From: Burkholderiales bacterium
GTDB taxonomy: Bacteria > Pseudomonadota > Gammaproteobacteria > Burkholderiales > Casimicrobiaceae
Reading direction: 5' to 3'
DNA: 48,500 nucleotides
Assembly (NCBI GenBank): GCA_025354165.1
Contig: JANXNI010000036.1
Span: 1 to 48,500 of the forward strand
The notes under the pieces were generated by a model. That model searched no databases. It was given only the letters and a program-made list of their open reading frames with translations, and was not told the origin of the DNA. Position numbers and translations under genes: made by a program. Below, one piece after another: positions 7,849 through 48,500 of the stretch (positions are counted from its first letter, which is position 1; every line of letters starts with the position of its first letter).

Positions 7849-8156
7849 TTGTGGTAGAGACGCGACTTGGACAGCAATGTCGAATCCTGTGTAACTCGCG
7901 GTGACTGAAGTTCAAGGGCGTCCGTGCGTGAATAGCCAATGCGAATCGCCGATCAATTTTGCCCGCACAGGGGTCAAAATTCAGATGTCGCGCACCTTCT
8001 GAACAATCGTCCAGATCCAAGCGAATTTAGATTTGGATCACGTGTACCTGCTGCGCAATCACACGATACTTCATTGTCGCTACGCCGGTCTGAATGGCAC
8101 GGCGCTGGTTGAACTAGAAAACAGCAACATCGAAAACATTCGATAGGAGACCCAAC
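7849..8156. other. Intergenic stretch, ribosome-binding site at the end
   Basis: No gene or terminator was seen. The last part contains TAGGAGA at 8144-8150, seven bases before the GTG start of the next gene. Because the gap is about 300 bp, the next gene may have its own promoter. Confidence 0.4.
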
Positions 8157-11100
8157 GTGATTCAAGGTGCTCGCATTCTGCCGGTTCAACATCTGACCAT
8201 TCGAGTGCCTTGGCACGACTCGGGATGGAAGGGCACCTTCTGCCAGACCTGCACTGCAAACACCAGTTGCACGGTGCTGCCGCGAATCGCAACAGGTCGC
8301 GACGATGCATTTGAGACGCTTCACGCAGGGGAGAGCATAGAGGCCCTTGATCGCTCGCAACATCCGCCATGTGTCGATGAACATGGAACCTTCATGGCGA
8401 AGTTTCCGCTGTCGATGCACAAGAAGCATCCTTACGCTGAAAGCGCGGAGACAACCCACGGACACTTTGCCGAAACACCTTACACGATCCGTCCGTTTTC
8501 AGCCGCTGCCATCCCATTCCGCTGGATGCTACGCGAGCAGGTCGAAGGCAGTAAGTGGGTGGGCGAGGGCATGAAGGAGACCCTGCAGTTTGACTACCAG
8601 GTGGAGCGCGAGCCAGATCTCACCGAGAACAAGGGGTGGAAGACGGACAGCAAGACCTGGGTTCAAGAAGGCACTAATCAGCGTGTGATACTCGATACGT
8701 TTTTCAGCGTCGCAAAGCCGAATGAGTCTCTGGTTTTCTTCTACGCCAAGCGTACGCCGCTGGTTGAAGATCCGCGTCGAGTGATCGTCGGCGTCGCACG
8801 CATCAAGTCGGTGAGCGCACCCATCGAGTATCACTACGCAGACGGCCAGAAGCCGAAGCACAGCATCAGTGGCTACCTCTGGGAAAGAAATATAGAGCAC
8901 TCTATCCGCCCCAAGAACTCGGACGGCTTCTTGCTGCCGTATCAGCAGCTGCTAGACGCTGCCGAGGCAGACGAATCCATCGACCTTGCCGCCTGCACCG
9001 CGTTCGCACCAGACGAGTATTTCGGTAGCTACTCCTACGGCACGGAGCATTTGGCGCATGATGGTGCCATCTCATCCCTGCTGGCCGTCGAGAAGGCCAT
9101 CAAGGCGATGCGCCAGCATCTCGCCGACGAGCCGTGGGGTGAACATCTCGCGTGGATTGATGCGGAGCTGAACCGGCTTTGGGAGGTGCGTGGCGCCTTC
9201 CCTGGTTTAGGTGCTGCCCTGAACGCATTCGGGTTTCCGCACGGGAATTTATTGGCTTGGTACTTGGCCAGCCATCGCGGTGAGAAGTTTGATCCGTGGC
9301 CCGCGTTGGCTGCGGTGCTCAAGAAGCCGGACGGACTGCCAGATTACCTGCGCGACGGCATCGGCGAAACGTTGCGTAAGAAGTGGGAGAAGCTGCCCGC
9401 AGAGCGCCGCGCGCTGCTCATGCTGCTGGCCCGGTTCAACCTGACCGACGATCAAGCGCTGCGTTGGTATCAACCAACTGAGCGAAAAAAGGCCGGGATC
9501 GATTTGGGCGACCCGGCGATCCTGGCTAATCCCTACCTCGTCTACGAGGACGATAGGTTGCAGTCCGATCCGGTCGCCTTTGAGCTAGTCGACCGCGGTG
9601 TGTTCCCGCCAGAGTCCATCCGCGCGTCGTTCCCGTTACCCAAGCCAAGCCTTGTGCGCGAGGCCATCGATGTGCGCAGGGTGCGCGCGGCCATGCTCCT
9701 GACGCTTGAGGAGGCGGCCGGCAACGAGGGGCACACCTACCTCATGGCAACATGGGTTGTTCAGCGGGTACGAGAACGCGCGCTGCAACCCAACTGTCCG
9801 CTGGACATGGACACGCTTGCGATCATGGAAGACTGTCTTGACCCCAAGATTGCGAGCATTCGGGTAAAGGACGGGCTCACGGCGTTTCAGTTGGACCGAT
9901 ACGTCGAGACCTCGACCCTCATCAGAACCAAGATCGGCAAGCGTAAGTCACGCAAGGCAAACCCCGGTGAGCACAAGTGGGTCGCACTCGTGGATGCGGC
10001 TATCGAGGCGACCAAGGATAAGGGTGCCGCTAAGGAGAAACCAAGCACCCGTGACTTGGCAGCCCGGAAGGAAAAATCGGCAGCTTTGGAGGTGCTCTAC
10101 AAATCCGGCGTCTCGGTGCTCATGGGAGCCGCTGGTACGGGCAAGAGCACGTTGCTTAGGGCGCTCTGCAGCATTGATAGCGTAAAGAATAAGGGAATCC
10201 TGCTGCTTGCGCCCACCGGCAAGGCTCGTGTGCGTCTGGAGCAAACGAGCGGGATGGCTGGCAAGGGAAAGACCGTTGCGCAATTCTTGAATGGACTGAA
10301 CCGATACGACGGCAAAACGGGTCGCTACTACGTCAACGAAGGCGCCGACCGCTCGGCCGTGCATGCGACAGTCATTATCGATGAGTGTTCCATGCTGACT
10401 GAGGAGCAACTCGCGGCGCTGCTGGATGCAGTGGAGAACGTGGACAGGCTGGTGCTGGTCGGCGACCCCAAGCAGCTATCTCCGATCGGTGCGGGCCGAC
10501 CTTATGTCGACATCGTGAACTTCTTGAGGCCGGACAATATCGAGAGCCTGCGAACCCGTGTTGCCGGAAACTTCGCCGAGCTGACCGTCACGATGCGTCA
10601 GGGCGCTGAAGATGGCATTGTTCGTGACGATGTGCTCCTTGCGCAAGCCTTCAGCGGTCGGCCACTGGATGCTGGGGCCGACGAAATCTGGAATACCGTG
10701 GCGTCTGGCAAGTCGAGCTTCGTGAAGTTGGTTCGGTGGAACAAGCCAGACCAGCTTCAAGCGTTGCTGCTGGATGAGCTGAAAACTGAGTTGGAGCTAA
10801 CGTCGATCACCGACGAGGCGACCTTTGAGGAGTCTCTAGGCGGCGTCAGTTCGGAGTTCGAAGGCCGGTCAATGGTCTGGTTCAACACCCAGTACAAGGA
10901 TCGCCCGGGCGCGTCCGAGAAGGCTGAAGCGTGGCAAATCCTCTCGCCGATCAAACAGTACCAAGCGGGCGTCACTGCCATCAACCGCGCACTGCAGCAG
11001 CAGTTCAGGAAGTCGTTCCTCAAGATGGCCGCTCAAACGGGCTGGACGAAGAAGATTCCGAGCCCTGCCGGGCCTGAGGGAATCATCTACGGCGACAAAG

Positions 11101-11999
11101 TTATCAACGTCGTTAACAAGAGCGGGCGTGACACCTATCCGGCAAAAGCTGACGCTTACGTTGCGAACGGCGACATCGGCATCGTCACCGGACACCGCAA
11201 GACTGCAGCGAGGAACTGGGCGCCCTATGAAGTTGAAGTGGAGTTGGCCTCGCAGCCCGGCTTTGCCTACAAGTACAGGCCTTGGGAATTTGATTCACAG
11301 GAAAGCACGCCGCCCCTCGAACTAGCGTATGCCCTGACCGTTCACAAGACACAGGGCAGCGAGTTCGGCAAGACGTTCGTGGTGATCCCAAACCCATGCC
11401 GCAACCTGACGCGGGAGATGCTCTACACCGCACTGACGCGCCAGAGGGACAAGGTCGTCATCTTGCATCAAGGCGACTTCAGAGACATGCTGCACTTCAG
11501 CCAAGAGGCCGCGTCAGAGATCAACAGGCGGATGACGAACCTCTTCGTGCCGTCGGCACCGGTGGAAATCAAGGTTCGCAACAAATCAGTCTTCTTGGAC
11601 GAGAAGCTGATCTACCTGACGGAAAACGGCGATCTGGTTCGCTCGAAATCCGAATGGATCATCGCTGACAAACTGAGGGCCGCAGGGATCAAGTACCAGT
11701 ACGAGCAGCCGCTTGTACTCGATGGCGTCGAGCGCTTGCCTGATTTCACGATCCGCGATGAGGACGCCGGTACCGTTTGGTACTGGGAGCACAATGGCAT
11801 GCTCTCGGATGCCGAGTATAAAAAGCGTTGGCAGCGCAAGGAGGCCGCTTACCGCCGAGCGCAGATCCTTCCACTTCCGTTGCCCGAGAAGGACGATGGC
11901 AGGGTCGGCACTCTATTGGTCACCGAGGAGCACGAAGGCACGGGGTTGGATCTGAACGCGATCCTTGCCAACATCAAACTCATACTTGGGCGTGTCTGA
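8157..11999 (+). CDS. RecD-like helicase with C-terminal PD-(D/E)XK-type nuclease domain
   Basis: The 1280-residue protein begins with GTG behind TAGGAGA. Residues ~13-90 form a conserved-looking cysteine-containing domain (RVPWHDSGWKGTFC). A superfamily 1 helicase follows: Walker A GAAGTGKST 657-665, Walker B DEC 742-744, motif III GDPKQLSPIG from 769 and a UvrD_C_2-type TVHKTQGSEF 1061-1070. The C-terminus has RSKSEW, PDF 1195-1197 and WEHNG 1210-1214, the pattern of a PD-(D/E)XK endonuclease fold. The canonical lysine is replaced by H/N, so nuclease activity is uncertain. It follows the GTPase-helicase pair on the same strand and may belong to the same system. The family is much larger than housekeeping RecD. 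Confidence 0.85.
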   Translation: MIQGARILPVQHLTIRVPWHDSGWKGTFCQTCTANTSCTVLPRIATGRDDAFETLHAGESIEALDRSQHPPCVDEHGTFMAKFPLSMHKKHPYAESAETTHGHFAETPYTIRPFSAAAIPFRWMLREQVEGSKWVGEGMKETLQFDYQVEREPDLTENKGWKTDSKTWVQEGTNQRVILDTFFSVAKPNESLVFFYAKRTPLVEDPRRVIVGVARIKSVSAPIEYHYADGQKPKHSISGYLWERNIEHSIRPKNSDGFLLPYQQLLDAAEADESIDLAACTAFAPDEYFGSYSYGTEHLAHDGAISSLLAVEKAIKAMRQHLADEPWGEHLAWIDAELNRLWEVRGAFPGLGAALNAFGFPHGNLLAWYLASHRGEKFDPWPALAAVLKKPDGLPDYLRDGIGETLRKKWEKLPAERRALLMLLARFNLTDDQALRWYQPTERKKAGIDLGDPAILANPYLVYEDDRLQSDPVAFELVDRGVFPPESIRASFPLPKPSLVREAIDVRRVRAAMLLTLEEAAGNEGHTYLMATWVVQRVRERALQPNCPLDMDTLAIMEDCLDPKIASIRVKDGLTAFQLDRYVETSTLIRTKIGKRKSRKANPGEHKWVALVDAAIEATKDKGAAKEKPSTRDLAARKEKSAALEVLYKSGVSVLMGAAGTGKSTLLRALCSIDSVKNKGILLLAPTGKARVRLEQTSGMAGKGKTVAQFLNGLNRYDGKTGRYYVNEGADRSAVHATVIIDECSMLTEEQLAALLDAVENVDRLVLVGDPKQLSPIGAGRPYVDIVNFLRPDNIESLRTRVAGNFAELTVTMRQGAEDGIVRDDVLLAQAFSGRPLDAGADEIWNTVASGKSSFVKLVRWNKPDQLQALLLDELKTELELTSITDEATFEESLGGVSSEFEGRSMVWFNTQYKDRPGASEKAEAWQILSPIKQYQAGVTAINRALQQQFRKSFLKMAAQTGWTKKIPSPAGPEGIIYGDKVINVVNKSGRDTYPAKADAYVANGDIGIVTGHRKTAARNWAPYEVEVELASQPGFAYKYRPWEFDSQESTPPLELAYALTVHKTQGSEFGKTFVVIPNPCRNLTREMLYTALTRQRDKVVILHQGDFRDMLHFSQEAASEINRRMTNLFVPSAPVEIKVRNKSVFLDEKLIYLTENGDLVRSKSEWIIADKLRAAGIKYQYEQPLVLDGVERLPDFTIRDEDAGTVWYWEHNGMLSDAEYKKRWQRKEAAYRRAQILPLPLPEKDDGRVGTLLVTEEHEGTGLDLNAILANIKLILGRV

Positions 12000-12059
12000 T
12001 GCACAAGGATGGGACATTAAGAATGAAATTGATCGTGCGTAGTCCAGCAGGCGGTCCGC

Positions 12060-12296
12060 GTTGAACGCGAACATGGCGGGAGTCTTCGCGTCAATCATGT
12101 CGATGGCGGTTTGCTGAAGTGCCTGCGACCGACTGATCGAACGGTTCGAGACATACTTTTCCATGGTCTTCACCGCGGTGTGTGCGGCGCTTTGTGATTC
12201 AACTTCCCAGTGCGTGACCAATAAACTTTTGGCCCCGGCAAAGAAGAACCCTCTGGCCAACCCGGACAAAGCATCGTAAGCGTGCAACCGCACCAC
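12060..12296 (-). pseudogene. CHAT-domain (caspase-like) protease fragment
   Basis: The segment reads YDALSGLARGFFFAGAKSLL, then VTHWEVES and QALQQTAIDMIDA. This matches the end of CHAT domains, where GL..AF..AGA.S.L.S.W is conserved after the catalytic cysteine region. The catalytic His/Cys part is absent and the reading frame runs into unrelated sequence before 12060. CHAT proteases act in caspase-like defence and toxin systems; this copy is debris. Confidence 0.6.
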
Positions 12297-12330
12297 CTAG
12301 ACGAAGCTTCGCTTAGCGTGTAGCCGAAAT

Positions 12331-12480
12331 TTATAGTCGGCAAAATGGCAGCAGTTTCTCGATGACATCAGTTAGCCACGCAGCCGGATTGAGTTGATTT
12401 CGCTTGGCCGTTGCAAACAGACTTTGAATGGCTGCGGTGCGTTTCACGTTGCCGCTGGATTTGATTTGCGATTGAAAATT
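12331..12480 (-). pseudogene. IS66-family TnpC C-terminal fragment
   Basis: About 45 codons before the stop at 12331 read AAIQSLFATAKRNQLNPAAW and then LTDVIEKL. IS66 TnpC transposases end in AAI.YSLI.TAKLNG.DP.AYL..VLER, a close match. The rest of the transposase and the IS ends were not found. Confidence 0.7.
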
Positions 12481-12674
12481 GTGAGCTACCTGGTGCCGTC
12501 GCGTGCCATGTTGCAAATGGCGGAAGATGTTGAATAGTGCCCTCTTTTCAAGACGGTGTTTCGGTACGACCACAGTGAACTGCTCGGGCGCGTAATCCGT
12601 TTTATGGGTGCGACGTATTTTGTCGTAGCAATCAGCAAAATGAAGTTCTGCCCCAAGGGGACAACATTTTTTAA

Positions 12675-14996
12675 GTGATTGCGGATATGGCCTGTCCTTT
12701 TGGTGGTGCACTTCCTTCCGATATTTCCGATGCATGCGACCAGCATCGAGTAGCGCCTTACCTGCTGCGCTACTACGCGTCCGTCAGCAACCCGCGAGCA
12801 AGCGCACTCGCAGACGGGATTTTCGAAACACTCGTTGGGCAAATAAGCTGGCCGCGTGGTTCACTGCGCCGGGCGACCGCAGCCGTGAAGGCGCATGGCC
12901 ATCCAGCAACAGGCGAATTGCCAGAATTCCTGCGTGAGAATGAAAGCGACGAAGATCAAGTTGACTTGCGTGTCGTCCCAACCAACGACGTCGACGCAAA
13001 GCTTTCGCAGCACGTCGACTTCAAGACCGGATTGAAAGCGCTCTATGCCGATGACCCAACCTGGTTGCGCGATGTTTTGCGCAACTCTTTGCGTGCGGCT
13101 GAAGCACGGCAAGATCTAGCGGACGGACCGATGTTGACACGTCTGCAACAAGTTGGCGAAGTGTTCGGATGGAAGCCCGCTGAATTGCAACTCGCGCGAA
13201 TCGCGATGCATGCTTCCGACATCGCAGAACTCGCGGAGTGGCTTGATACATTGCCAATGGCTGGCCGCGACGCTGCTCGTGCCTACAAACGTGTCTTGAG
13301 TGCTGATGTCCCAACGCTGCGGCAAAGCCTGCGACCGAATAGCCACCTCAGCTGCTGTGGCCTGTTCATTGTTGATCGACCGCACGATCGCCCACTTGGC
13401 CTCTCCGAACCACCGCGTCTGCACCCAAAGCTCATGGCTGCACTGGGTGAAGCGGACTTCCATGTGAAGCAGCTGTCACGATTTCTGTTCTCGAACTCGC
13501 CCGCCCCCACGCTAAGCGATGCCGATTTCGTGCATCTGAGGGCCGAGTACGAGCCGTTGACAACCCTTTTGCGCCAAGCCGCAAGCGACCAGGAAGCAGG
13601 CATCAACATCCTGATTTATGGTCCTCCCGGTACTGGCAAAACGGAGTTCGCACGTTGGCTGGTCTCCAACGCCCATTTGTCCTCGTTCGAAGTCCCCGCG
13701 ATCGACGGTGACAACGAAGACGGTTGCACCCACCCCGTGGGTGACCGGCTGGCCTTGCTGCGCAGCGCCCATTGGTTGATGCGCGGCGCGAAGCAAACCG
13801 CACTCATTTTTGACGAAGCCGAAGACGCATTCCCCAAGGACACGCCGCTCTGGATCAACGTTCACGGCCTTCGTGGCTCTTCACAAGGGCCACGCAAAGC
13901 GTGGGTGAATCAGTTACTCGAACTGACACCGTTGCCCACGATCTGGATCAGCAACGCAGTGAATCAAATGGATCCCGCCTATCTGCGTCGCTTCACCTAC
14001 CACCTTGAAATGCGCAGCCCTACGCAGCGCATTCGCGAGCGCATCGCCCAGCAGCGCGCCACCGCCCACGGGTTACCTGAAGGTGTTGCATCGGGCCTCG
14101 GCGAATTCGCCGACGCCAGTCCCGCGATGATCGATAGCGCATTGCGTTTCGCGCGACTCGCCAGCAAAGACGACAATCCCGAAATTCGTGCAATTTCACA
14201 AGGCCAACACGCGCTGCGAAGCCTGCGCGCCGGTCTGCAGGCAGCAGGGCTCAAAGTTCACGGCCAGACGCGACTGCAAATCACAACGTACGACCCCAGC
14301 TTCATCAATCTACGCGGCGGTATGGACACAGCGTCCTTGCTACAAAGTCTTCGTCGCGCCCGCGCGAGCAATCTCTGCTTTTACGGCGCACCCGGCACCG
14401 GTAAAACCAGCTTCGCCGAACACATCGCGCGAGAGCTGGATCGTCCTCTGATGATCCGTCGTGCATCCGATCTGCAAAGTATGTGGCTCGGCGAAACAGA
14501 AAAGCGCATGCGCGAAAGCTTTGCCGAAGCACAAAGCGAAAACGCCGTGTTGCTGCTGGACGAAGCCGATTCCTTCCTCGGTGATCGCAGCGGCGCGCAT
14601 CACAGTTGGGAGCGATCACAAGTCAACGAGCTGTTGCAATGCATGGAGCGCTTCGAAGGTATCTTCATCGCAGCCACGAACATGATCGACACGCTAGACA
14701 AAGCGGCATTGCGCCGCTTCACCTACAAAATCGAATTTTTGCCACTCAACCTTGAGCAACGTGTCGCCATGTTTCGTCAGCAACTCGGCGATGTGCAATT
14801 GCCGGAAATTCGATGGGCGCATCTACGCACCAAACTCGCGCGACTCGATGGATTAACCGCAGGTGATTATGCAGTGATCGCGAGGCAAGCAAGCATGCGG
14901 ACCGATGCGATGATGCCGGATGAAATGATTGCGGTGCTAGAGGCCGAGCTGCAACTTCGCTCGCCAATGCGCGGGCGTGCGATCGGCTTCGCATGA
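12675..14996 (+). CDS. Tandem AAA+ ATPase
   Basis: The 773-residue protein carries two AAA+ modules after a ~300-residue N-terminal region without recognisable motifs. Module 1 has Walker A GPPGTGKT 316-323 and Walker B FDEAED with D380-E381. Module 2 has GAPGTGKT 571-578 and LLLDEAD with D629-E630, and both have an R-R-F arginine segment. The layout resembles Cdc48/VPS4-type remodelling ATPases. An in-frame stop at 12672 forces the start to 12675 (GTG) or the ATG at 12687. The gene overlaps the next by ATGA. The IS66 fragment immediately upstream means the promoter region is recent or mosaic. Substrate unknown. Confidence 0.8.
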   Translation: MIADMACPFGGALPSDISDACDQHRVAPYLLRYYASVSNPRASALADGIFETLVGQISWPRGSLRRATAAVKAHGHPATGELPEFLRENESDEDQVDLRVVPTNDVDAKLSQHVDFKTGLKALYADDPTWLRDVLRNSLRAAEARQDLADGPMLTRLQQVGEVFGWKPAELQLARIAMHASDIAELAEWLDTLPMAGRDAARAYKRVLSADVPTLRQSLRPNSHLSCCGLFIVDRPHDRPLGLSEPPRLHPKLMAALGEADFHVKQLSRFLFSNSPAPTLSDADFVHLRAEYEPLTTLLRQAASDQEAGINILIYGPPGTGKTEFARWLVSNAHLSSFEVPAIDGDNEDGCTHPVGDRLALLRSAHWLMRGAKQTALIFDEAEDAFPKDTPLWINVHGLRGSSQGPRKAWVNQLLELTPLPTIWISNAVNQMDPAYLRRFTYHLEMRSPTQRIRERIAQQRATAHGLPEGVASGLGEFADASPAMIDSALRFARLASKDDNPEIRAISQGQHALRSLRAGLQAAGLKVHGQTRLQITTYDPSFINLRGGMDTASLLQSLRRARASNLCFYGAPGTGKTSFAEHIARELDRPLMIRRASDLQSMWLGETEKRMRESFAEAQSENAVLLLDEADSFLGDRSGAHHSWERSQVNELLQCMERFEGIFIAATNMIDTLDKAALRRFTYKIEFLPLNLEQRVAMFRQQLGDVQLPEIRWAHLRTKLARLDGLTAGDYAVIARQASMRTDAMMPDEMIAVLEAELQLRSPMRGRAIGFA

Positions 14997-15520
14997 CCAG
15001 GCACATCCGATTCCGGGAACGAGATGTGGAAGTCATCAAGCAGGCGCTTGAAACGATGGCGCCGGTTGGCGGGTTTCCATCTCGTGAAAGCTTTGAGCGT
15101 TGGGTCCGAGACACGCCGATCAGCCCGGCCCTGAGTCCCTACCTTTGGGGCCTCTTCGGTGCGACGCATCCCGTTCGTACGCCGGCCTGTTGGGATTGGG
15201 CCGATGCCTACGAGCTATTGAAGGGACAGAGTGGACAACTGGTGGAAACGGGTCTCAAGCAGCCCGAAGCGCCCCGCTTCACACAAACAGTTGTCGATCA
15301 CCTAAAGGTCGTATTGTTGCCCGCATACCGCTCGCTGAACGCGGTAGCCTCCATCGCGATCATCGTGGTCACGGCAGACCGATTCGATGCACCGGACGAC
15401 CATTGGACCGCGTTATACGAATCCGTTGACTTGCTCCTGCCCGAAAAGACGCGCTATGTCGTTACTTGCGTCACCGCGGATGCTGAACAATCCCCCAACC
15501 TGTGTCTGTGGATAGCCTAG
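14993..15520 (+). CDS. Conserved-looking unknown protein between the AAA+ ATPase and SIR2
   Basis: The 175-residue product starts at an ATG that shares ATGA with the ATPase stop and ends 8 nt before the sirtuin start. It has a charged N-terminus, an aromatic middle (SPYLWGLFGATHPVRTPACW) and a hydrophobic strand SIAIIVVTADRF. There is no signal peptide and no motif I recognise. Tight coupling suggests it works with the ATPase, perhaps as an adaptor; this is inference. Confidence 0.7.
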   Translation: MTRHIRFRERDVEVIKQALETMAPVGGFPSRESFERWVRDTPISPALSPYLWGLFGATHPVRTPACWDWADAYELLKGQSGQLVETGLKQPEAPRFTQTVVDHLKVVLLPAYRSLNAVASIAIIVVTADRFDAPDDHWTALYESVDLLLPEKTRYVVTCVTADAEQSPNLCLWIA

Positions 15521-41473: not shown

Positions 41474-41502
41474 ACCGGGTTTTTTGGTAGCGTTAGATCA
41501 AG

Positions 41503-41534
41503 AAAAAAGCCCCAAAACGCGAAGCGTTAAGGGG
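41503..41534 (-). terminator. Terminator T1 after the DNA ligase gene
   Basis: On the minus strand CCCCTTAACGC, TTC, GCGTTTTGGGG pairs into a hairpin followed by TTTTTT (41503-41508). It belongs to the same sequence family as T2-T6. Confidence 0.8.
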
Positions 41535-41550
41535 TTGGGGGGGCGGTTGT

Positions 41551-42702
41551 TTACGCCGCGAGCGCGTCTGCTGCCGTCGACTGCTGAGAAACCACAGACG
41601 ACACAGCTTCACCGTTGGGTAAGCCCGTCTGACCCAAAGGCATCTTCAAGCGCTTAACCTGCGAAAGCAGACAAGCGCTCGAATCAACGTCTTTGCGTTC
41701 GCCCAGGTACACCGGCTGAAAAAGACTTCCGGCCACGAACTTGTAGAGATATCGAACTTCAACGACAGTACCATCAGCCGGGACAGGATGATTCGGAGGA
41801 ATCGTCACCGACCCTACGTAGTGACGTTTGCCTTCATCATCAAACAATGCCAGGAGCGCGGAGCGCTTACCGTCGTTTGTCTGGATGACCAGGCAGGATG
41901 CAGATTCAAGGAGTTTGTACTTCAGCGCATAGCCTCCAGAGTTGGGCCGTCCACTTGTGTACGGTGCGTTCAATTTCTTGAACACGATACCTTCACCGTC
42001 GCGCTGCTCAATCATTTTGAACAACACGCGTTTGGCATCCGGGTGCAGCGCAGTGGCCACGATCCGAATGCTTACATCGAGCTCGCCGCGATCCGCCATG
42101 GCGTTGAGAGCACTGATGCGCTCAACGACATTCTTCGCTCGCAGATTCTGCCCGTCGTATTCCAGCAACTCAAACGCATGGAATACCTCGCCGATCGCTT
42201 CGCCGTCGATCACAAAGTCGTGGGCAAGAGAAACTCTCCGCCACGACTCCGGAAAGCTGACGAAAAGCCCCTTGCGGTTCGTTGCTTGTAACTCGCCGCC
42301 TTTGCAGATCAGCATGCAGCGACGTCCGTCAACTTTTTCTTGAGCGATCCAGTTCGCATCTGACAACATGCGTTCCAGGTCCGCGTCGGGCACCACGTTG
42401 AGCAATTGCGGCAGGACGCCCGAAACCGTGCCAGCGATTTCCGTTCCTGCGTACGCAACGCCGCCTTCTTCCTGCGTGTAACCCTTTGCTTTTTTCTCGG
42501 CGACAAGTTTGTCGAAGATTTTCTGCGCCTTGGCCAACTCAACCGGTGCCGTCGTTTTCGCGCCGGTGTTGAGCGTGCTACCGCGACGGCCGTAGGCGAA
42601 CTTCACCAAAAAACCAGCGTCATCAGGCGCCGCGACCAATTCGGCGTGGTATTCCTTGTCTGATGAGCCATCAGTGAAATACAGTGATACTTTCGAGTTC
42701 AT
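41551..42702 (-). CDS. WGR-domain ATP-dependent DNA ligase
   Basis: The 383-residue protein has an N-terminal WGR-type domain (KEYHAEL, KFAYGRRGS at 34-42) that usually binds DNA ends, then an ATP-dependent ligase adenylation domain. Ligase motif I is K123-V-D-G126 in QEKVDGRR, followed by NRKG, IDGEAIG, EGIV 237-240 and motif V K261-Y-K263. The enzyme would join nicks through a lysine-AMP intermediate. ATG 42702 lies behind GGGAGA and the conserved leader; an upstream ATG at 42753 is in the leader and unlikely. Confidence 0.85.
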   Translation of the reverse strand: MNSKVSLYFTDGSSDKEYHAELVAAPDDAGFLVKFAYGRRGSTLNTGAKTTAPVELAKAQKIFDKLVAEKKAKGYTQEEGGVAYAGTEIAGTVSGVLPQLLNVVPDADLERMLSDANWIAQEKVDGRRCMLICKGGELQATNRKGLFVSFPESWRRVSLAHDFVIDGEAIGEVFHAFELLEYDGQNLRAKNVVERISALNAMADRGELDVSIRIVATALHPDAKRVLFKMIEQRDGEGIVFKKLNAPYTSGRPNSGGYALKYKLLESASCLVIQTNDGKRSALLALFDDEGKRHYVGSVTIPPNHPVPADGTVVEVRYLYKFVAGSLFQPVYLGERKDVDSSACLLSQVKRLKMPLGQTGLPNGEAVSSVVSQQSTAADALAA

Positions 42703-42782
42703 ACTTTCTCCCATTTTGGAAAACGCATCAGAACCGCTGAACCCCATGTTCACGATCTATGCCGCATCAGTGCGTTCGACAA
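42703..42782 (-). promoter_or_regulatory. Conserved promoter-leader module E (DNA ligase)
   Basis: On the minus strand the order is TTGTCG (42782-42777), 15 nt, GCATAG (42762-42757), 4 nt, hairpin TGAAC-ATGGG-GTTCA (42752-42738), GTTC, GGGAGA and the ATG. Arms differ in sequence from modules A-D but pair perfectly around the same ATGGG loop. Confidence 0.75.
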
Positions 42783-42810
42783 CTCAAGGTGTGCAGAACC
42801 CGATCTGACA

Positions 42811-43098
42811 ATGACAACCACCGCAGCCACGTCGAATCTTCCGGCGTACCAGGACAAGCCAATGCCGCCGGTGATCGCTGCTCGGCTGAAGCGGGGCATC
42901 ACGAGTGGTTGTACGTGCGCGCTTGTGGGCGGACTGATGGTGCGGGTTGTGCTGCGTATCCTCAACGTCACCAAGAGTCCCAGCATGTACGTTGGTGGAC
43001 TGGGATTCGCGGTGCTTACCGGCCGTCTCCTGATAGACAGGAGAGCGCGAGGGGAACACCTCGCATGTCGGAAACCACGCACGCTGACCAGCGTGTGA
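42811..43098 (+). CDS. Possible small membrane protein
   Basis: A 95-residue frame contains two hydrophobic stretches, CALVGGLMVRVVLRILNV and MYVGGLGFAVLTGRLL, suggesting a small membrane protein. There is no clear ribosome-binding site. It is divergent from the ligase unit. A GC-rich hairpin (GGTCGCC/GGCGACC near 43140-43161) follows. Confidence 0.35.
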   Translation: MTTTAATSNLPAYQDKPMPPVIAARLKRGITSGCTCALVGGLMVRVVLRILNVTKSPSMYVGGLGFAVLTGRLLIDRRARGEHLACRKPRTLTSV

Positions 43099-43207
43099 TA
43101 CCTCGGTCGCGATCACGCAGCGCGTGAGCTTTCCTGACCGGGTCGCCGCCGTCCGGCGACCGAACTACCGACCGATCACGCGCCAAGCGATACAGCAGTA
43201 AAAGGAA

Positions 43208-43234
43208 ATCCCGAAACGCAAAGCATCTCGGGAT
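43208..43234 (-). terminator. Terminator T2
   Basis: Minus-strand hairpin ATCCCGAGATGC, TTT, GCGTTTCGGGAT, then TTCCTTT. It lies 10 nt after the stop of the 74-residue gene and resembles T1 and T3-T6. Confidence 0.7.
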
Positions 43235-43244
43235 GGGGAGTGGA

Positions 43245-43469
43245 CTAAGTCGCGAAAGTATCTACCGTGTGGCGGTGCAATGCTTCCATTTCACGTGCGA
43301 CACTTTCCGATGTATCGTCGACGTAGGCTTCGACGATGCAACAATCGTCGGTGAAATCATCCTCCGAAGATCTGAGCCAGTTCAACAAGTACTCAAACTT
43401 CGCGTCTGGCGGGTAGTGACCAAAGAAAAAATCGGCCGCAAATTTCTGATATTTGTCCATGGAATCCAC
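43245..43469 (-). CDS. Small acidic unknown protein
   Basis: The 74-residue product (MDSMDKYQKFAADFFFGHYP) is acidic in its middle (RSSEDDFTDDCC). It starts 3 nt after the stop of the 94-residue gene upstream; M4 is an alternative start. Together they form a two-gene unit between leader D and terminator T2. Confidence 0.65.
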   Translation of the reverse strand: MDSMDKYQKFAADFFFGHYPPDAKFEYLLNWLRSSEDDFTDDCCIVEAYVDDTSESVAREMEALHRHTVDTFAT

Positions 43470-43472
43470 CGC

Positions 43473-43757
43473 TTAGTAAGGAATGCAGACATACGGCCGC
43501 TTCGTCGACGGCTCGAACGGCACTTCCGTGACGAAGTAGCCGAACCGATTGACGTAGTGCCAGCCGTCCGTAACGTACAAGCGGCCGCTGTCACCCTCTG
43601 TCAACGTCCATACTTTGCCTGGTTCCTTCTCGTTGGTTTCAACGATGAACTGGTATTCGTCGCCATAAGTCTCGAACATGAACTCCGGTCGGTGTTGTGC
43701 AATTGTGTTTTGGATAGGCCTGTAACGCTCTACCCATGTGTCCCATCGCGATGCCAT
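43473..43757 (-). CDS. Small unknown protein, first gene of the leader D unit
   Basis: The 94-residue product (MASRWDTWVERYRPIQNTIA) is rich in Tyr and Trp and looks like a compact beta fold. The start follows CAGGAG. No family recognised. Confidence 0.65.
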   Translation of the reverse strand: MASRWDTWVERYRPIQNTIAQHRPEFMFETYGDEYQFIVETNEKEPGKVWTLTEGDSGRLYVTDGWHYVNRFGYFVTEVPFEPSTKRPYVCIPY

Positions 43758-43825
43758 TATGTGCTCCTGAAAATCAGCGTCTCAGCCCATCTGAGCGTGC
43801 TTTGCCAGGTCAGTGCGAGCGACAT
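43758..43825 (-). promoter_or_regulatory. Conserved promoter-leader module D
   Basis: Minus-strand order: TGTC (43824-43821), 15 nt, GCAAAG in place of GCATAG (43805-43800), 4 nt, hairpin CTCAG-ATGGG-CTGAG (43795-43781), then CAGGAG and ATG. The loop is identical to the other copies while the arms differ and still pair. Confidence 0.75.
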
Positions 43826-43879
43826 CTAATGGTGCAGCGCCGGTTCCATATCAGGTCGGCGACCGCGCATCGAGCCATG

Positions 43880-43909
43880 AAAAACCCCGGAACGCGAAGC
43901 GTTTCGGGG
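43880..43909 (-). terminator. Terminator T3 after the CobT-like gene
   Basis: Minus-strand CCCCGAAACGC, TTC, GCGTTCCGGGG followed by TTTTT. It lies 15 nt after the stop of the CobT-like gene. Confidence 0.85.
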
Positions 43910-43924
43910 GTTGGTTGGGTGAAG

Positions 43925-45901
43925 TTAAATCACAGTGCGCAACGCATCCATGATCGCCAGTTGTAAGCTGGGTATTGTCGGCGCCAGAAACACCGAGTCC
44001 GCGGGCATTGCTGCCTTGTACGCCTCTCTGATCGGTACGCATTTGGCACTTAACGGGCCGTCGCTCGCCAATGGACCCATAAGGATCGTCCTGACTTCAA
44101 CGCCTTCGCTGGTACATGTCCGCGTGATCGGCTCCAACTCATTCAAGTCAGCGGCCGCGCCATCGGTGACGATCAGAAGCAGCTTACGCTGTTCGTCACG
44201 CACCAACAAATGACTAACGGTGTGGATCATTGGACGCGCGAGACTGGTTCCTTGAGGGACATAGTCGAGGCGCTTTCGCGCATCACCCCATCCCTGTTCG
44301 AATTCCTTCAAACGTACCGTGCCATCGTGAAAGCCGTGAACGCTGAACGGCACGTCGATTTGATCAAGCGCATCGCCCAAGGCTAGAACCAGCGCTTTCG
44401 CGATGGTCGCCGAAGTGTTCGCCCCATCTCCGTGGTCGTCCATTGAAGCGGAGCAATCAAAGAGAATGGAAAACGCCGTGTCGATTTCTTCCTTGAAGTC
44501 TTGCCGCTCGAATACGCGGGGATCACCCACGGCTATCCGCGAAGCAAGACGCCAATTGAAGACGCCACTCCCAGTTGCATAAGCATCTGATCGTGTTCGT
44601 GCCTGCAGCAACATGTCAAGGTGCGACGCGATCGGCAGGGTTGCTGCGATCACCTCCACTTTGCTCGCCAATGCCGGTGCCAGACAGGTCGTCGCAACAT
44701 CCGACGCTTCGCTGTTCAGGCCACACGACAGTGCATCGCGTTCACCATGCGTTTCTGTCCACTCTTTCGCGTCAGGATCAATGTCCTGTCGCAATCGATC
44801 AGAGATGTCACCCGACTGCGTGGCCGCAAGCTGCTCAGCAATTGCTTTCGCAACCTCCTGTGCAGTACGCTTGGTCTTCTGGCGAGTAGGTCTTAACGAT
44901 GCTTGCCCGTTACCCGACCCGTCGCCCTCAGTTGCGCCACTCTGACCATCGCCCTGTTGGGGCGAGGGTGGCTGTGTAGCACCCTGATTCTGCGCTGCAT
45001 TGTTGGGGTCACCGCTATTTCCCGATTGCGCGGGTTCCGGGATCTCCATCTTCACCATTGCCTTACGCAAAAGCGAAGCGATTGCCCTGGCTGCGATCAG
45101 CATGTCATTGAATGACGCACCGGACATCACTCCAGGTGTTGCCAGCTTGAACATCTTGTCGACGACGCGAGCCGTCCACACTGCCTTTGCCTCACGCTCC
45201 CAGATCAATGCCTCCAACGTCAGGGGTTGCCCGAGTTGAGCGCGCAGTCCCATTAGCAGCGCATTGATGATTGCTGACAACGGCACCACGTCGGGTTCAC
45301 CTGTCTGCAAAGTCCCCATGGAACCGGTCATTTGCATGACGTGTATCGCCTCGACAATGTACATCTGAAAGCCAGGGTACTTCACGGCGGACGCTCGCTC
45401 CATTCGTACATCTTCCAGCACACCGATGAGGTTGCGAGTCAAGGAATCGACGCGTGGCCAATCCTTCGGATTGGGTGTTTCAATGACGTGTCCGATCTCG
45501 TGAACGAGGTAGCCACGATACAGCGCTATTTCCGCTGAATTGTTCGCTTTCGGACTTGGCATGCAAATCACCTTGTCGGTGTCGGTACATGCAGTCGCAA
45601 AGCCCGGACCATTGACGACTTTGATCCCGTACTTCTTGCCCAACATCTTTGCGATCAACACTGCTGATGCAACGATGGTTCGAGCATCCGCTTTTGCAAA
45701 AAACGCGCCCCAACACTGAGCTGCATGTTTCGCTTCGCCCTCCGTTTTGTACAGCGCGAATGGTTGCGGATAATGAGCATCCATTGATACCGGTGCCAGC
45801 AGCCGCCAGAATTGTGGCTTTTCTCGTTTGGACGCGACGCGGTAGCGTGTACCTTCGTACACACAACGCACGATGCGTACCGTCTCGTTTACTTTTGCCA
45901 T
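43925..45901 (-). CDS. CobT-like protein with zinc-protease motif and VWA domain
   Basis: The 658-residue protein has an HExxH motif (HEIGH, 134-138) in an N-terminal half typical of putative metallopeptidases. A Gln/Gly/Ser-rich linker spans about 300-350, and a C-terminal von Willebrand A domain follows with MIDAS D482-C-S-A-S486 and IVTDGA. CobT of cobaltochelatase has a similar C-terminal VWA layout and works with CobS. Here no cobN or cobalamin gene is present, while a CobS-like ATPase is encoded nearby under the same leader, so a remodelling pair of the MoxR/VWA kind is more likely. ATG 45901 follows CAGGA. Confidence 0.8.
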   Translation of the reverse strand: MAKVNETVRIVRCVYEGTRYRVASKREKPQFWRLLAPVSMDAHYPQPFALYKTEGEAKHAAQCWGAFFAKADARTIVASAVLIAKMLGKKYGIKVVNGPGFATACTDTDKVICMPSPKANNSAEIALYRGYLVHEIGHVIETPNPKDWPRVDSLTRNLIGVLEDVRMERASAVKYPGFQMYIVEAIHVMQMTGSMGTLQTGEPDVVPLSAIINALLMGLRAQLGQPLTLEALIWEREAKAVWTARVVDKMFKLATPGVMSGASFNDMLIAARAIASLLRKAMVKMEIPEPAQSGNSGDPNNAAQNQGATQPPSPQQGDGQSGATEGDGSGNGQASLRPTRQKTKRTAQEVAKAIAEQLAATQSGDISDRLRQDIDPDAKEWTETHGERDALSCGLNSEASDVATTCLAPALASKVEVIAATLPIASHLDMLLQARTRSDAYATGSGVFNWRLASRIAVGDPRVFERQDFKEEIDTAFSILFDCSASMDDHGDGANTSATIAKALVLALGDALDQIDVPFSVHGFHDGTVRLKEFEQGWGDARKRLDYVPQGTSLARPMIHTVSHLLVRDEQRKLLLIVTDGAAADLNELEPITRTCTSEGVEVRTILMGPLASDGPLSAKCVPIREAYKAAMPADSVFLAPTIPSLQLAIMDALRTVI

Positions 45902-45976
45902 GATTGTTTTCCTGAAAAAGGAACACCCTTCGCCCATCGAAGGAATGCTCTATGCGTCAGGAAGTAGCGACGACAC
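45902..45976 (-). promoter_or_regulatory. Conserved promoter-leader module C (CobT-like gene)
   Basis: Minus-strand order: GTGTC with TGTC at 45975-45972, 16 nt, GCATAG (45955-45950), 6 nt, hairpin CCTTCG-ATGGG-CGAAGG (45943-45927), GTGTTC, CAGGA, ATG. The second stem pair is C-G here but T-A in modules A and B. Confidence 0.8.
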
Positions 45977-45986
45977 GGACGGGTAT

Positions 45987-46017
45987 GAAAAAACCCCGGA
46001 ATGCGAAGCATTCGGGG
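45987..46017 (-). terminator. Terminator T4
   Basis: Minus-strand CCCCGAATGC, TTC, GCATTCCGGGG followed by TTTTTT. The inner stem is ATGC/GCAT where T3 has ACGC/GCGT, another paired change. Confidence 0.85.
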
Positions 46018-46041
46018 GTTGGGGGCGTGGTTGGAGAACCA

Positions 46042-46569
46042 CTAAAACACCCACGCAGCGTGAACTGGCGGATTGAGCGTTATGACAGCGCGCGGGAGGC
46101 TATTTCGCTTTGGTGTGGAAGTCTTCAGCGCAGTTGTGCCGCGCGTCAAGTCCACCGCCCACTCTTCGTATGTGAGACGCATACGCGATCCGCGCGTGAG
46201 CTCCGCCTGATGGGCGATTGCATGCGCAACCGTTGCCAGAGTATCCAGGCACCGTCGGTTGTCGATCTCCGGGAATGGCGTGAAACGAGCCCCTTGATAG
46301 GCACTTCGCAACATCACACCGACCCCGATTGTTACGATCAACTCGATATCAGGATCACACAGAAACCCCGGCATTCCCATCATCAACTTGTAGCCACCGT
46401 CTTGTACTTTTTTGTCAGCGGTACGCGTCAACACCGCAGGCCCAGACAGCTTCCCATCGGGCAGCCCTGGCTTTGACATCGAACCCCAGGTCCGCGCCGA
46501 GTGCGAGCGAATCCACATCTTGGGGGCGTTACCTGAACCGATTTGTTCGTTGATATACAGCTCGATCAT
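46042..46569 (-). CDS. Unknown protein, second gene of the leader B unit
   Basis: The 175-residue product (MIELYINEQIGSGNAPKMWI) begins at an ATG sharing ATGA with the stop of the 98-residue gene. It contains a small hydrophobic stretch (IELIVTIGVGVMLRSAYQGA) and a helical region with TVAHAIAHQAEL. No known family. Terminator T4 follows directly. Confidence 0.65.
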   Translation of the reverse strand: MIELYINEQIGSGNAPKMWIRSHSARTWGSMSKPGLPDGKLSGPAVLTRTADKKVQDGGYKLMMGMPGFLCDPDIELIVTIGVGVMLRSAYQGARFTPFPEIDNRRCLDTLATVAHAIAHQAELTRGSRMRLTYEEWAVDLTRGTTALKTSTPKRNSLPRAVITLNPPVHAAWVF

Positions 46570-46862
46570 TGGCGCGGCCCTCGATCCCGCTTTGTCTCAG
46601 CTCTGATGAGTTTGATTTGCGAATGCAGGGGTCGTATCCGCACGATTTGTCCTGCGCCAACATCGACATCAATGTTGGCAAAGTACGGCTCGCCGGCTCG
46701 GGTCGTCACACACGGTGTATGGGAACGGATCACCTTGCCACGCGTGCCCGGCAATATGTCGGCAGAGTGGTACTGCCCGCGATCCAGCCAGGCGCAGTAA
46801 AAGTAGTCTTTGAGAGGCACAGCCACTCGCAGCTCGACCGTGTCGCCATCTTTGATTTTCAT
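46566..46862 (-). CDS. Small unknown protein, first gene of the leader B unit
   Basis: The 98-residue product (MKIKDGDTVELRVAVPLKDY) looks beta-rich, with a barrel-like middle (GTRGKVIRSHTPCVTTRAGE). The ATG at 46862 follows CAGGAG and the conserved leader. Longer readings to 47141 run back through the leader and are not used. The downstream gene overlaps by 4 nt. Confidence 0.7.
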   Translation of the reverse strand: MKIKDGDTVELRVAVPLKDYFYCAWLDRGQYHSADILPGTRGKVIRSHTPCVTTRAGEPYFANIDVDVGAGQIVRIRPLHSQIKLIRAETKRDRGPRQ

Positions 46863-46936
46863 GATTACTCCTGTTGAAGAGAACCTTCTTTCGCCCATCG
46901 AAAGGTGTTCTATGCAAAAGCAGGTGCGCTTGACAC
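46863..46936 (-). promoter_or_regulatory. Conserved promoter-leader module B
   Basis: Minus-strand order: GTGTCA with TGTC at 46935-46932, 16 nt containing CGCACC, GCATAG (46915-46910), 5 nt, hairpin CTTTCG-ATGGG-CGAAAG (46904-46888), GTTC, CAGGAG, ATG. Confidence 0.8.
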
Positions 46937-46987
46937 GCGCTGGTGGTCGACGGGAACGTCCAACGCCAAGGAGGGAAAGCCGGGCAA

Positions 46988-47018
46988 GTAAAACCCCGGA
47001 ACGCGATGCGTTGCGGGG
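46988..47018 (-). terminator. Terminator T5 after the CobS-like gene
   Basis: Minus-strand CCCCGCAACGC, ATC, GCGTTCCGGGG followed by TTTT. Same family as T1-T4 and T6. Confidence 0.8.
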
Positions 47019-47068
47019 TTGGGGGATGGGGAGGGTCTCGGTGAAGTGATTCTCCGCGCGATAGTCGA

Positions 47069-48040
47069 CTACCGTCGCACTTTCGTGCCGGTGATCGCTT
47101 CGTAGGCGGTAAGAACTGCCTCCGCTTCGTGTTTCGGCCATTTATCGAGGAGCGCAAACCGCAGACCCTCAATAGCTGCCACGAACGACGTGTCGAGTGC
47201 GGCCACGGCAGAAAACGCTACTGTCGCTCGTGCCCAACGTATGAGACCACGCGTTGAGATGACGTTGCTCAGTTTTTCAGTTCCGACACCGGAGATGAAG
47301 TCACCGCGTACCTTGTTCGCGATCTGCACCATTTGCTCAGCGATAGGCGCAACATCGGGCACCGTCTTGGTAAGGACAACGATTTCAGTGGCTTCGTCAA
47401 GGTAGGTGACCGAGAGTGAAGCAAAGCGATCCAGCGACGCCAGATTTTGCTTTTGCACCGCTCGATAACCCGCGTGCGAAGCGTCGCTCCAGCCAAACGT
47501 GTTACCTGTTGCAGCGACCCGAAAATCCGGATGCGCGACAACATATTCTCCGGTGCTTTTGATGAGCACAGGCGCGCCGTCAAGTATCGTGTTGAGCCCG
47601 GTGCTTTCGGAAGGTGATACGAGATCCCATTCGTCGAGCAAGAGCACACCACCGATGCGCATTGCTGCGATGATGGGGCCATCGACCCAGTGCATACCAC
47701 GTGCCTGCGAAATTTGCATTCCGCCGAGTAGGTCGTCGAGCGTTGTTCTGCCAGTACACGGAACCCGAAAAACCGGAATATTGAGTCGACTGGAGAACTG
47801 TTCGATCAACGATGATTTTCCAGCACCCGTAGGACCCGATACCCAGAGACCCGGTTCGGCCAATGCACCAGCAACCCACATCAACAACTTGCGCAGGGAC
47901 TCCTTGGCAAATGTGAAATGCGGATTGTTGCGCGGCACCAAGGGATGAGCCTGAGGTCGGATTTCGACCTGGGCGTCGCTCGGCATTGCAAAAACTTCGC
48001 GTATGGTTCGCGTTACGACCGTCGTGTTTGTTGTGTCCAT
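47069..48040 (-). CDS. CobS-like AAA+ ATPase
   Basis: The 323-residue protein has Walker A GPTGAGKS at 69-76, a CobS/MoxR-type IPVFRVPCTGRTTLDDLLGG, Walker B LLLDEWD with D136-E137, sensor-like AATGNTFG and LASLDRFA before the arginine-finger region. CobS-like ATPases form rings that act with VWA partners such as CobT. Here the likely partner is the VWA protein at 43925-45901, about 1.2 kb downstream. The ATG at 48040 follows AGGAGC and leader A. Confidence 0.85.
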   Translation of the reverse strand: MDTTNTTVVTRTIREVFAMPSDAQVEIRPQAHPLVPRNNPHFTFAKESLRKLLMWVAGALAEPGLWVSGPTGAGKSSLIEQFSSRLNIPVFRVPCTGRTTLDDLLGGMQISQARGMHWVDGPIIAAMRIGGVLLLDEWDLVSPSESTGLNTILDGAPVLIKSTGEYVVAHPDFRVAATGNTFGWSDASHAGYRAVQKQNLASLDRFASLSVTYLDEATEIVVLTKTVPDVAPIAEQMVQIANKVRGDFISGVGTEKLSNVISTRGLIRWARATVAFSAVAALDTSFVAAIEGLRFALLDKWPKHEAEAVLTAYEAITGTKVRR

Positions 48041-48112
48041 TAAGTGCTCCTGATGTAGAACGCCTTTCGCCCATCGAAAGACATGCCTATGCAGAGGAGG
48101 TGCGGTGGACAG
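48041..48112 (-). promoter_or_regulatory. Conserved promoter-leader module A (CobS-like gene)
   Basis: Minus-strand order: TGTC (48111-48108), 15 nt containing CGCACC, GCATAG (48092-48087), 6 nt, hairpin CTTTCG-ATGGG-CGAAAG (48080-48064), GCGTTC, CAGGAG, ATG. Confidence 0.8.
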
Positions 48113-48123
48113 TCGCGGGTATG

Positions 48124-48154
48124 AAAAAACCTCAGAACGCGAAGCGTTTTGAGG
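48124..48154 (-). terminator. Terminator T6
   Basis: Minus-strand CCTCAAAACGC, TTC, GCGTTCTGAGG followed by TTTTTT. It ends the partial gene at the window's right edge. Confidence 0.85.
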
Positions 48155-48175
48155 TTGGGTCGCCGGATGTGTCGG

Positions 48176-48500
48176 CTAGAAGGCCCACACAGACCCGGCG
48201 GCAACGCGCAAGGCGTTTGGCATGACGAACGATGACCTTGCTTGATGAGACGGTGCTGGCTCGAACGCAAGTAGGTATTCCTCTCGCAGATCGGCCACTG
48301 TGCCGCGAGCACCGGGCCAATCGCAGACGCGGTCCAGCAGTGATTCCCAGTACGCGTCGATCCCAAAGCGTTTGAGGTTGTCGGCGTTGCCAAAATACAG
48401 GCCACCTGCATACATCGTGCGTAGCAGGATCGTTGTGTCGCTAATGGCCTGCTTTTCCGATTCGGCCGTGGCGCAGCGAATTCCCGTGATGCCGAGCGTC
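48176..48500 (-). CDS. Unknown protein, C-terminal part (cut at window edge)
   Basis: The minus-strand frame is open to the right edge and ends at TAG 48176, giving at least 107 residues. Visible text includes TTILLRTMYAGGLYFGNADN and YWESLLDRVCDWPGARGTVA. No family recognised. Terminator T6 follows, so it is the end of another unit of the same style; its leader would lie beyond the window. Confidence 0.65.
   Translation of the reverse strand, partial: TLGITGIRCATAESEKQAISDTTILLRTMYAGGLYFGNADNLKRFGIDAYWESLLDRVCDWPGARGTVADLREEYLLAFEPAPSHQARSSFVMPNALRVAAGSVWAF

Follow-up and report, generated by a model that had tools for sequence, protein, structure and literature searches.

A repeated AUGGG-loop RNA leader before at least 14 genes of a Burkholderiales plasmid and its possible role in translational control

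In PMC4542580, such conjugative elements are described as controlled at transcription, by AcaCD, SetCD and repressors, and a strong translational attenuator, credited there to Garriss 2013, is reported upstream of bet in SXT and also in IncA/C plasmids. Attenuation is not mentioned in the accessible part of PMC4344509, and the partial texts covered by our literature search do not describe leaders of this kind in front of many genes, the bet instance being the only one in print there. Here, we describe a structured leader that precedes five minus-strand gene units in the window, which is the entire 48,500-bp contig C6 (JANXNI010000036.1) of a Burkholderiales draft genome (4.72 Mb, 97 contigs), and that stands before at least 14 genes when three other contigs (C42, C91, and C54) are included. 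The module is a real, selected, plasmid-wide RNA leader. That it acts in cis as a translational attenuator, repeated to form a regulon of at least 14 genes, is the explanation we favor, with about as much doubt as confidence.

The five window copies, A to E, share the architecture ACC-N6-TGTC-N15/16-GCATAG-hairpin(ATGGG)-SD-ATG, where SD is the Shine-Dalgarno sequence. All lie on the minus strand where the original prediction had placed them, with the spacing it gave: 15-16 nt from TGTC to the GCATAG box (GCAAAG in D), 4-6 nt from there to the ATGGG-loop hairpin and, in four of the five, D being the exception, a GTTC 2-3 nt after the hairpin. It had overlooked an ACC that precedes TGTC by exactly 9 nt in every one of the 14 copies, one of which has TGGC in place of TGTC. 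Copy A (48041-48120) has ACC at 48120-48118, TGTC at 48111-48108, GCATAG at 48092-48087 and the hairpin CTTTCG-ATGGG-CGAAAG at 48080-48064, followed by the SD and by the ATG at 48040. Copy B (46863-46944) has ACC at 46944, TGTC at 46935, GCATAG at 46915-46910, the hairpin at 46904-46888 and ATG at 46862. Copy C (45902-45984) shows ACC at 45984, TGTC at 45975, GCATAG at 45955-45950 and ATG at 45901, with the hairpin CCTTCG-ATGGG-CGAAGG inside these limits. For copy D (43758-43833), ACC is at 43833, TGTC at 43824, the hairpin CTCAG-ATGGG-CTGAG at 43795-43781 and ATG at 43757, and for copy E (42703-42790), ACC is at 42790, TGTC at 42781, GCATAG at 42762-42757, the hairpin TGAAC-ATGGG-GTTCA at 42752-42738 and ATG at 42702.

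The full A/B pattern matched twice in the window, where 0.00 matches were expected from shuffles. Among the 132 perfect hairpins with 5-nt loops and arms of at least 5 bp on both strands of the window, the commonest loop was ATGGG together with its complement CCCAT (5 each), all other loops occurring at most twice. Exact GCATAG-N2-9-TTCGATGGGCGAA matches were found three times in the window and three times on C42. A covariance model (R1) was then built, as the original prediction had proposed, from nine copies (five from the window and four from C42; alignment A2), and it found further copies in the same element and in a sister element. On the whole genome at E ≤ 1, R1 matched 13 places: the nine training copies, three on C91 (E 5.4e-7 to 1.7e-6), and one on C54 (1.8e-4), these E-values being rough because the calibration was short. 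A 14th copy was identified on C54 (23.5 bits, E 0.0011, 371 kb searched), giving at least 14 copies, five in the window and nine elsewhere. The start codon lies 31-46 nt downstream of the first base of the loop in all 14.

In a sister genome of the same genus (G014), five R1 matches were found, all on a single 83 kb contig, so that one molecule holds the counterparts of both C54 copies and of three from C42. Across 17 genomes of the genus and 64 of the family, only the source genome (G000) and G014 matched, and only the source genome did so across 399 genomes of the order and 369 of the class, the family, order, and class searches being run with stricter filters. A pattern scan of genome contigs returned 13 stretches; among the matches listed, only two, both on JAPUER010000031.1, also had the TGTC block. 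Viral contigs gave no hits, R1 had no match in 12 loci around AAA homologs, and window positions 41501-48500 had no match in phage records and no close plasmid DNA, apart from a single short stretch of the ligase gene that matched.

The hairpin, here called P3, shows evidence of selection. In the 14 copies (alignment A4), 31 cells showed two-sided changes against a shuffle mean of 7.8, 96.4% of the cells were paired against 59.2%, and the covariation score was 1.03 against 0.27, none of these values being reached in 500 shuffles. Controls in which P3 was slid were only 38-49% paired, and single P3 positions hold CG, GC, UA, and AU. The loop is ATGGG in 13 of the 14 copies and TTGGG in the ssb copy (M). 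The selected RNA structure claimed from the five window copies is thus borne out and, because pairing is kept while the arms change, the ATGGG helix acts as a folded RNA strand and not as a DNA palindrome. The earlier remark that the element was not recognizable was fair: Rfam 15 gave no gathering-score match over the window, only five matches (E 0.13-4.1) in 42000-48500 and none on any module, by which a known Rfam element was rejected.

Further helices were examined by comparing, over the 14 copies, the pairing of stretches from the same copy with that of stretches from other copies, nine pairings being tested. P3 gave a z of -7.95. A stretch upstream of GCATAG that is complementary to the SD (the anti-SD stretch) paired preferentially with the SD of its own copy (P1, z -3.6, p 0.0002; 0.011 in a first crude test, before the stretches were redefined), as did a local hairpin over the SD (pairing 5-6, z -2.8, p 0.0035), which stands out most in E, F, and M, the long copies, and a short helix below P3 (P2, z -2.3, p 0.012), of which the GTTC noted earlier is the 3′ strand. 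The results were stable when single copies were left out, P1 staying at p ≤ 0.0025. Control pairings (P2 strand with SD region, anti-SD with the post-hairpin stretch, lead with anti-SD) were not significant, and the ACC/TGTC block showed no sign of RNA pairing with other parts of the leader (p 0.33 and 0.88).

The predicted folds point to a hidden SD. With the RNA taken to start at the AC that ends the block ACC-N6-TGTC-N6-AC, where folding relative to shuffles was also strongest, the predicted unpaired probability of the SD was 0.15 in native leaders and 0.38 in shuffled ones (Fisher p 5e-4), and it fell below the mean of its own shuffles in 14 of 14 copies. For RNAs starting at or upstream of AC it was 0.13-0.15, and for RNAs starting at the box it averaged 0.40; in B, D, E, F, and M, the choice of 5′ end had little or no effect. 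In chimeric leaders, the gain in pairing energy was significant for native combinations (p 0.005). The SD is therefore predicted to be sequestered, as in translational attenuators. Of the earlier suggestion that a structured leader controls mRNA stability or translation, the structured leader stands, and it likely acts by burying the ribosome-binding site, either in place of or in addition to an effect on mRNA stability.

Plasmids with the same kinds of genes were found to carry another leader. In seven related plasmid regions (IncA pRA1, pQBR55, Comamonas, Rhodoferax, Methylomonas, Marinobacter, and Methylophaga; L057, L059, L060, L062, L063, L064, and L066), an ACCC-GGG..CCC-GGGG leader precedes 56 of 101 gene starts, against ~1.5 in shuffles, the 101 being the listed plus-strand genes; a number of genes in these stretches that overlap or lie on the minus strand were left out. 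It precedes 3 of 17 and 0 of 9 starts in two other regions and none of the 15 transfer-gene starts of C42. In the Comamonas region, the AAA, DUF3150, VWA, ssb, bet, exonuclease, and DUF4942 genes all have it, and similar leaders were seen by eye before the AAA gene in 5 of 12 loci of the order Burkholderiales (L071, L073, L074, L076, and L077). Within the 56 leaders, which were preselected by the ACCC/GGGG pattern, own-copy pairing was significant for 2-5 (z -15), for 5-6 on the SD side (z -12), and for 2-3 (z -8.6), with 0 of 5000 permutations each, but not for the control pairings 2-6 (953/5000) and 3-5 (510/5000). The predicted unpaired probability of the SD was 0.28 against 0.37 in shuffles (Fisher p 4e-4). 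This is the signature of a bistable attenuator, in which 2-3 with 5-6 would shut the SD and 2-5 would free it.

Six plasmid regions had no Rfam match at gathering score; L062-L064 gave four matches only, to unrelated families and below the cut-offs (E 0.048-1). R1 had no match in 15 whole plasmid records (stricter filters) nor in L057-L062 (default filters) and, the order of the elements also being different, the AUGGG leader does not belong to the ACCC/GGGG class. In the Azospira plasmid pAZI09 (L061), another repeated leader, CAGAA ... GCGTAG or GGCAAAAT, was seen by eye before several genes, with SD-complementary stretches in some copies. A tenth plasmid region (L065) was read by eye only.

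By analogy, SD-burying leaders before the same kinds of genes in related plasmids lend support to the attenuator explanation, which might work as follows. The 5′ block ACC-N6-TGTC-N6-AC would probably be recognized either in the DNA, as promoter or operator, or in the RNA, as a bare strand, and the remainder would be transcribed as a 5′ leader with the AUGGG-capped hairpin P3, P2 below it and, in many copies, P1 at the base; in copies whose 3′ part is long, a local hairpin would take over the burial of the SD. The default state would be a hidden ribosome-binding site. A putative factor recognizing the invariant AUGGG loop and the GCAUAG stretch, or else the choice of a start site that omits the anti-SD, would open or lock all copies together. 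The 14 copies, the covariation of P3, and the position before genes are shown directly; P1, P2, and SD burial are backed by statistics and prediction, and the transcription start, the trans-acting factor, and the timing are what we infer. A wider proposal, which we regard as possible but tentative, is a plasmid-wide RNA operon in which ssb, ERF/bet, the exonuclease, the AAA-DUF3150-VWA genes, and the ligase would each be preceded by a copy of a single SD-burying switch. One plasmid-encoded factor would read all copies, and the set would be translated as a whole only at one moment, for example when the plasmid establishes itself in a new host. In this lineage the switch would be the AUGGG leader, and plasmids of the IncA/pQBR type would have an independent, bistable one.

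Several results weigh against the attenuator. SD burial was individually significant (p < 0.05) in only 3 of 14 copies (E, H, and K), in the chimeric-leader test, native combinations did not have a significantly less accessible SD (p 0.10), and E, F, and J have a weak P1. As the boundaries of the stretches were chosen after the first folds, the duplex p-values are optimistic, and none of the 176 cells of an unbiased sliding map went beyond z -3 (minimum -2.9); nine of them fell below -2.5 against 0 in a single null map, with the lowest values at the same two places. Fold z-scores were modest (mean -1.64 from AC, -1.4 from ACC, -0.93 from the box). For P3 itself, all six pairs show two-sided change, yet 42 of 500 shuffles equal this and 5 of 500 equal its number of pair types, and these shuffles do not keep the relatedness of the copies. 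Finally, the spacing between TGTC and GCATAG resembles that of -35 and -10 elements, and GCATAG is kept whether or not it is paired in the predicted folds, which fits a DNA element.

This last point leads to the explanation first proposed, in which TGTC is the -35 element and GCATAG the -10 box of a dedicated promoter class, and the hairpin caps and stabilizes the mRNA. The fixed ACC-9-TGTC and 15-16 nt TGTC-box distances and the presence of P3 in all 14 copies agree with it. So do terminator-like hairpins, which in some copies stop a few bases short of ACC on its upstream side (16 terminator-like sites in 41500-48500 against 7.0 expected, including the module hairpins B and C), since these units need a start of their own, which would probably lie between ACC and the anti-SD stretch. 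Transcription usually starts 5-8 nt after a -10 box, however, and the 5′ arm of P3 starts 1-4 nt after it in six copies (1 in J, 2 in K, 3 in L, and 4 in D, E, and H; J and N have off-consensus boxes placed by position). The usual start would thus fall inside the arm in the tightest copies, making GCATAG unlikely as an ordinary -10 box, and the significant own-copy anti-SD/SD pairing points to an RNA that includes the stretch upstream of the box rather than one beginning at the hairpin. No promoter class emerged either: sigma-70-like sites in 41500-48500 were not above chance (2 against 2.9 expected, one overlapping copy D downstream of its loop), and none of the 11 genome matches to sigma factor genes (PF04542) lies on the four plasmid contigs of this draft, by which a plasmid-encoded sigma factor was rejected. 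An FlhC-like activator was rejected as well, PF05280 having 0 matches in the draft genome with a positive E. coli control (FlhD was not searched for). We therefore find the promoter with a 5′-end hairpin rather improbable. A silencer of read-through transcripts, comparable to what is known for the IS10 and IS50 transposase genes, would reconcile the promoter-like spacing with P1: transcripts from an own start at or just after the box would have an open SD, and those from upstream would carry the anti-SD and fold shut. The dependence of predicted SD accessibility on the 5′ end agrees with this, but the five copies in which the 5′ end makes little or no difference do not, and a start at the box needs a promoter, none being visible; we judge it as doubtful as the promoter.

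The two remaining explanations are far less probable. An inverted repeat bound by a protein as a DNA operator would fit the fixed position beside the promoter-like block, but here the arms vary while pairing is kept, and the conserved part is the asymmetric center ATGGG, the opposite of an operator; P3 covariation contradicts a DNA palindrome, leaving this idea very little room. Equally improbable is that the AUG of the loop, present in 13 of 14 copies, starts an N-terminally extended protein or a leader peptide. It is open and in frame in six copies (B, C, E, G, J, and L), but this is near the 1 in 3 expected, the other copies are out of frame, D meets a stop after two codons, and the loop of M is UUGGG, so the loop AUG was rejected as a start codon.

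The genes after the window copies, all on the minus strand, support one leader class shared by the ligase, CobS/CobT-like, and small genes. Copy A precedes an AAA_5/CbbQ-NirQ-like ATPase of 323 aa (47069-48040; Pfam AAA_5 4.5e-19, CbbQ_C 2.4e-5). Copies B and D precede proteins of 98 aa (46566-46862) and 94 aa (43473-43757) without Pfam or PHROGs match, a 175-aa open reading frame (46042-46569) overlapping the end of the former. A VWA/CobT-like protein of 658 aa (43925-45901; Pfam CobT_C 5.6e-5), with plasmid VWA-protein homologs at ~26% identity, follows C. A WGR-domain ATP-dependent ligase of 383 aa (41551-42702) follows E, with DNA_ligase_A_M at 3e-10 and WGR at 2.4e-6 in the protein form read from 42714 and a PHROG ATP-dependent DNA ligase match at 5.5e-17. 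On the other contigs, the leaders precede a 44-aa protein (F), DUF3150 (G), DUF4942 (H, running off the contig), an ERF recombinase (I), a gene without assignment that runs off the contig (J), YqaJ (K), a 223-aa protein (L), SSB (M), and a 75-aa protein (N). Several of the 14 genes thus belong to DNA recombination and repair.

Because C42 encodes a Rep3 initiator, ParA, a ParB/SopB-like protein, and the F-type transfer proteins TraC, TraG, and TrbI, the carrier was taken as a conjugative plasmid. The shared modules and the arrangement in G014 suggest that C6, C42, C54, and C91 form one replicon. Among the 5000 PLSDB records listed, the best-ranked TraC was 34.6% identical, in plasmids of Alicycliphilus and Simplicispira. 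C42 also holds an array of 24 transfer RNA genes (10718-13819) covering 19 amino acids, Val being absent, and C91 has module copies near both contig ends with a long run of metal-resistance/efflux-like genes between them, as judged from protein starts only. On the plus strand of the window, 2601-15000 encodes a dynamin-like protein, an AAA protein with two matched stretches, and a helicase (Pfam AAA_30, UvrD_C_2) that we take to be RecD-like.

If the attenuator explanation is true, translation is the level at which these plasmids control their genes for recombination and establishment, one gene at a time, and the leaders would be a direct handle for finding the regulator and the moment of expression. 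Here a single structured leader precedes at least 14 genes, and a related group of plasmids, IncA included, carries a different switch at like positions. That ACCC/GGGG class resembles the AUGGG leader in the kinds of genes, in an ACC(C) near the 5′ side, and in a buried SD, but its 2-5 and 5-6 pairings alternate and no TGTC/GCATAG blocks were seen in it. The AcaCD/SetCD (FlhDC-like) regulons are likewise element-wide and cover transfer and recombination genes, whereas this draft genome has no gene of the FlhC family, and the conserved part is here largely an RNA hairpin. The closest described parallel is the bet attenuator of SXT/R391 integrative and conjugative elements and IncA/C plasmids. 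It too is a leader that holds translation at a low level, and it stands before a recombination gene of a conjugative element; the same kind of gene, an ERF recombinase, has an AUGGG leader here. Unlike the bet attenuator, the AUGGG leader occurs in at least 14 copies, each before a gene, and combines an AUGGG-capped hairpin, a box, and an anti-SD upstream of the hairpin.

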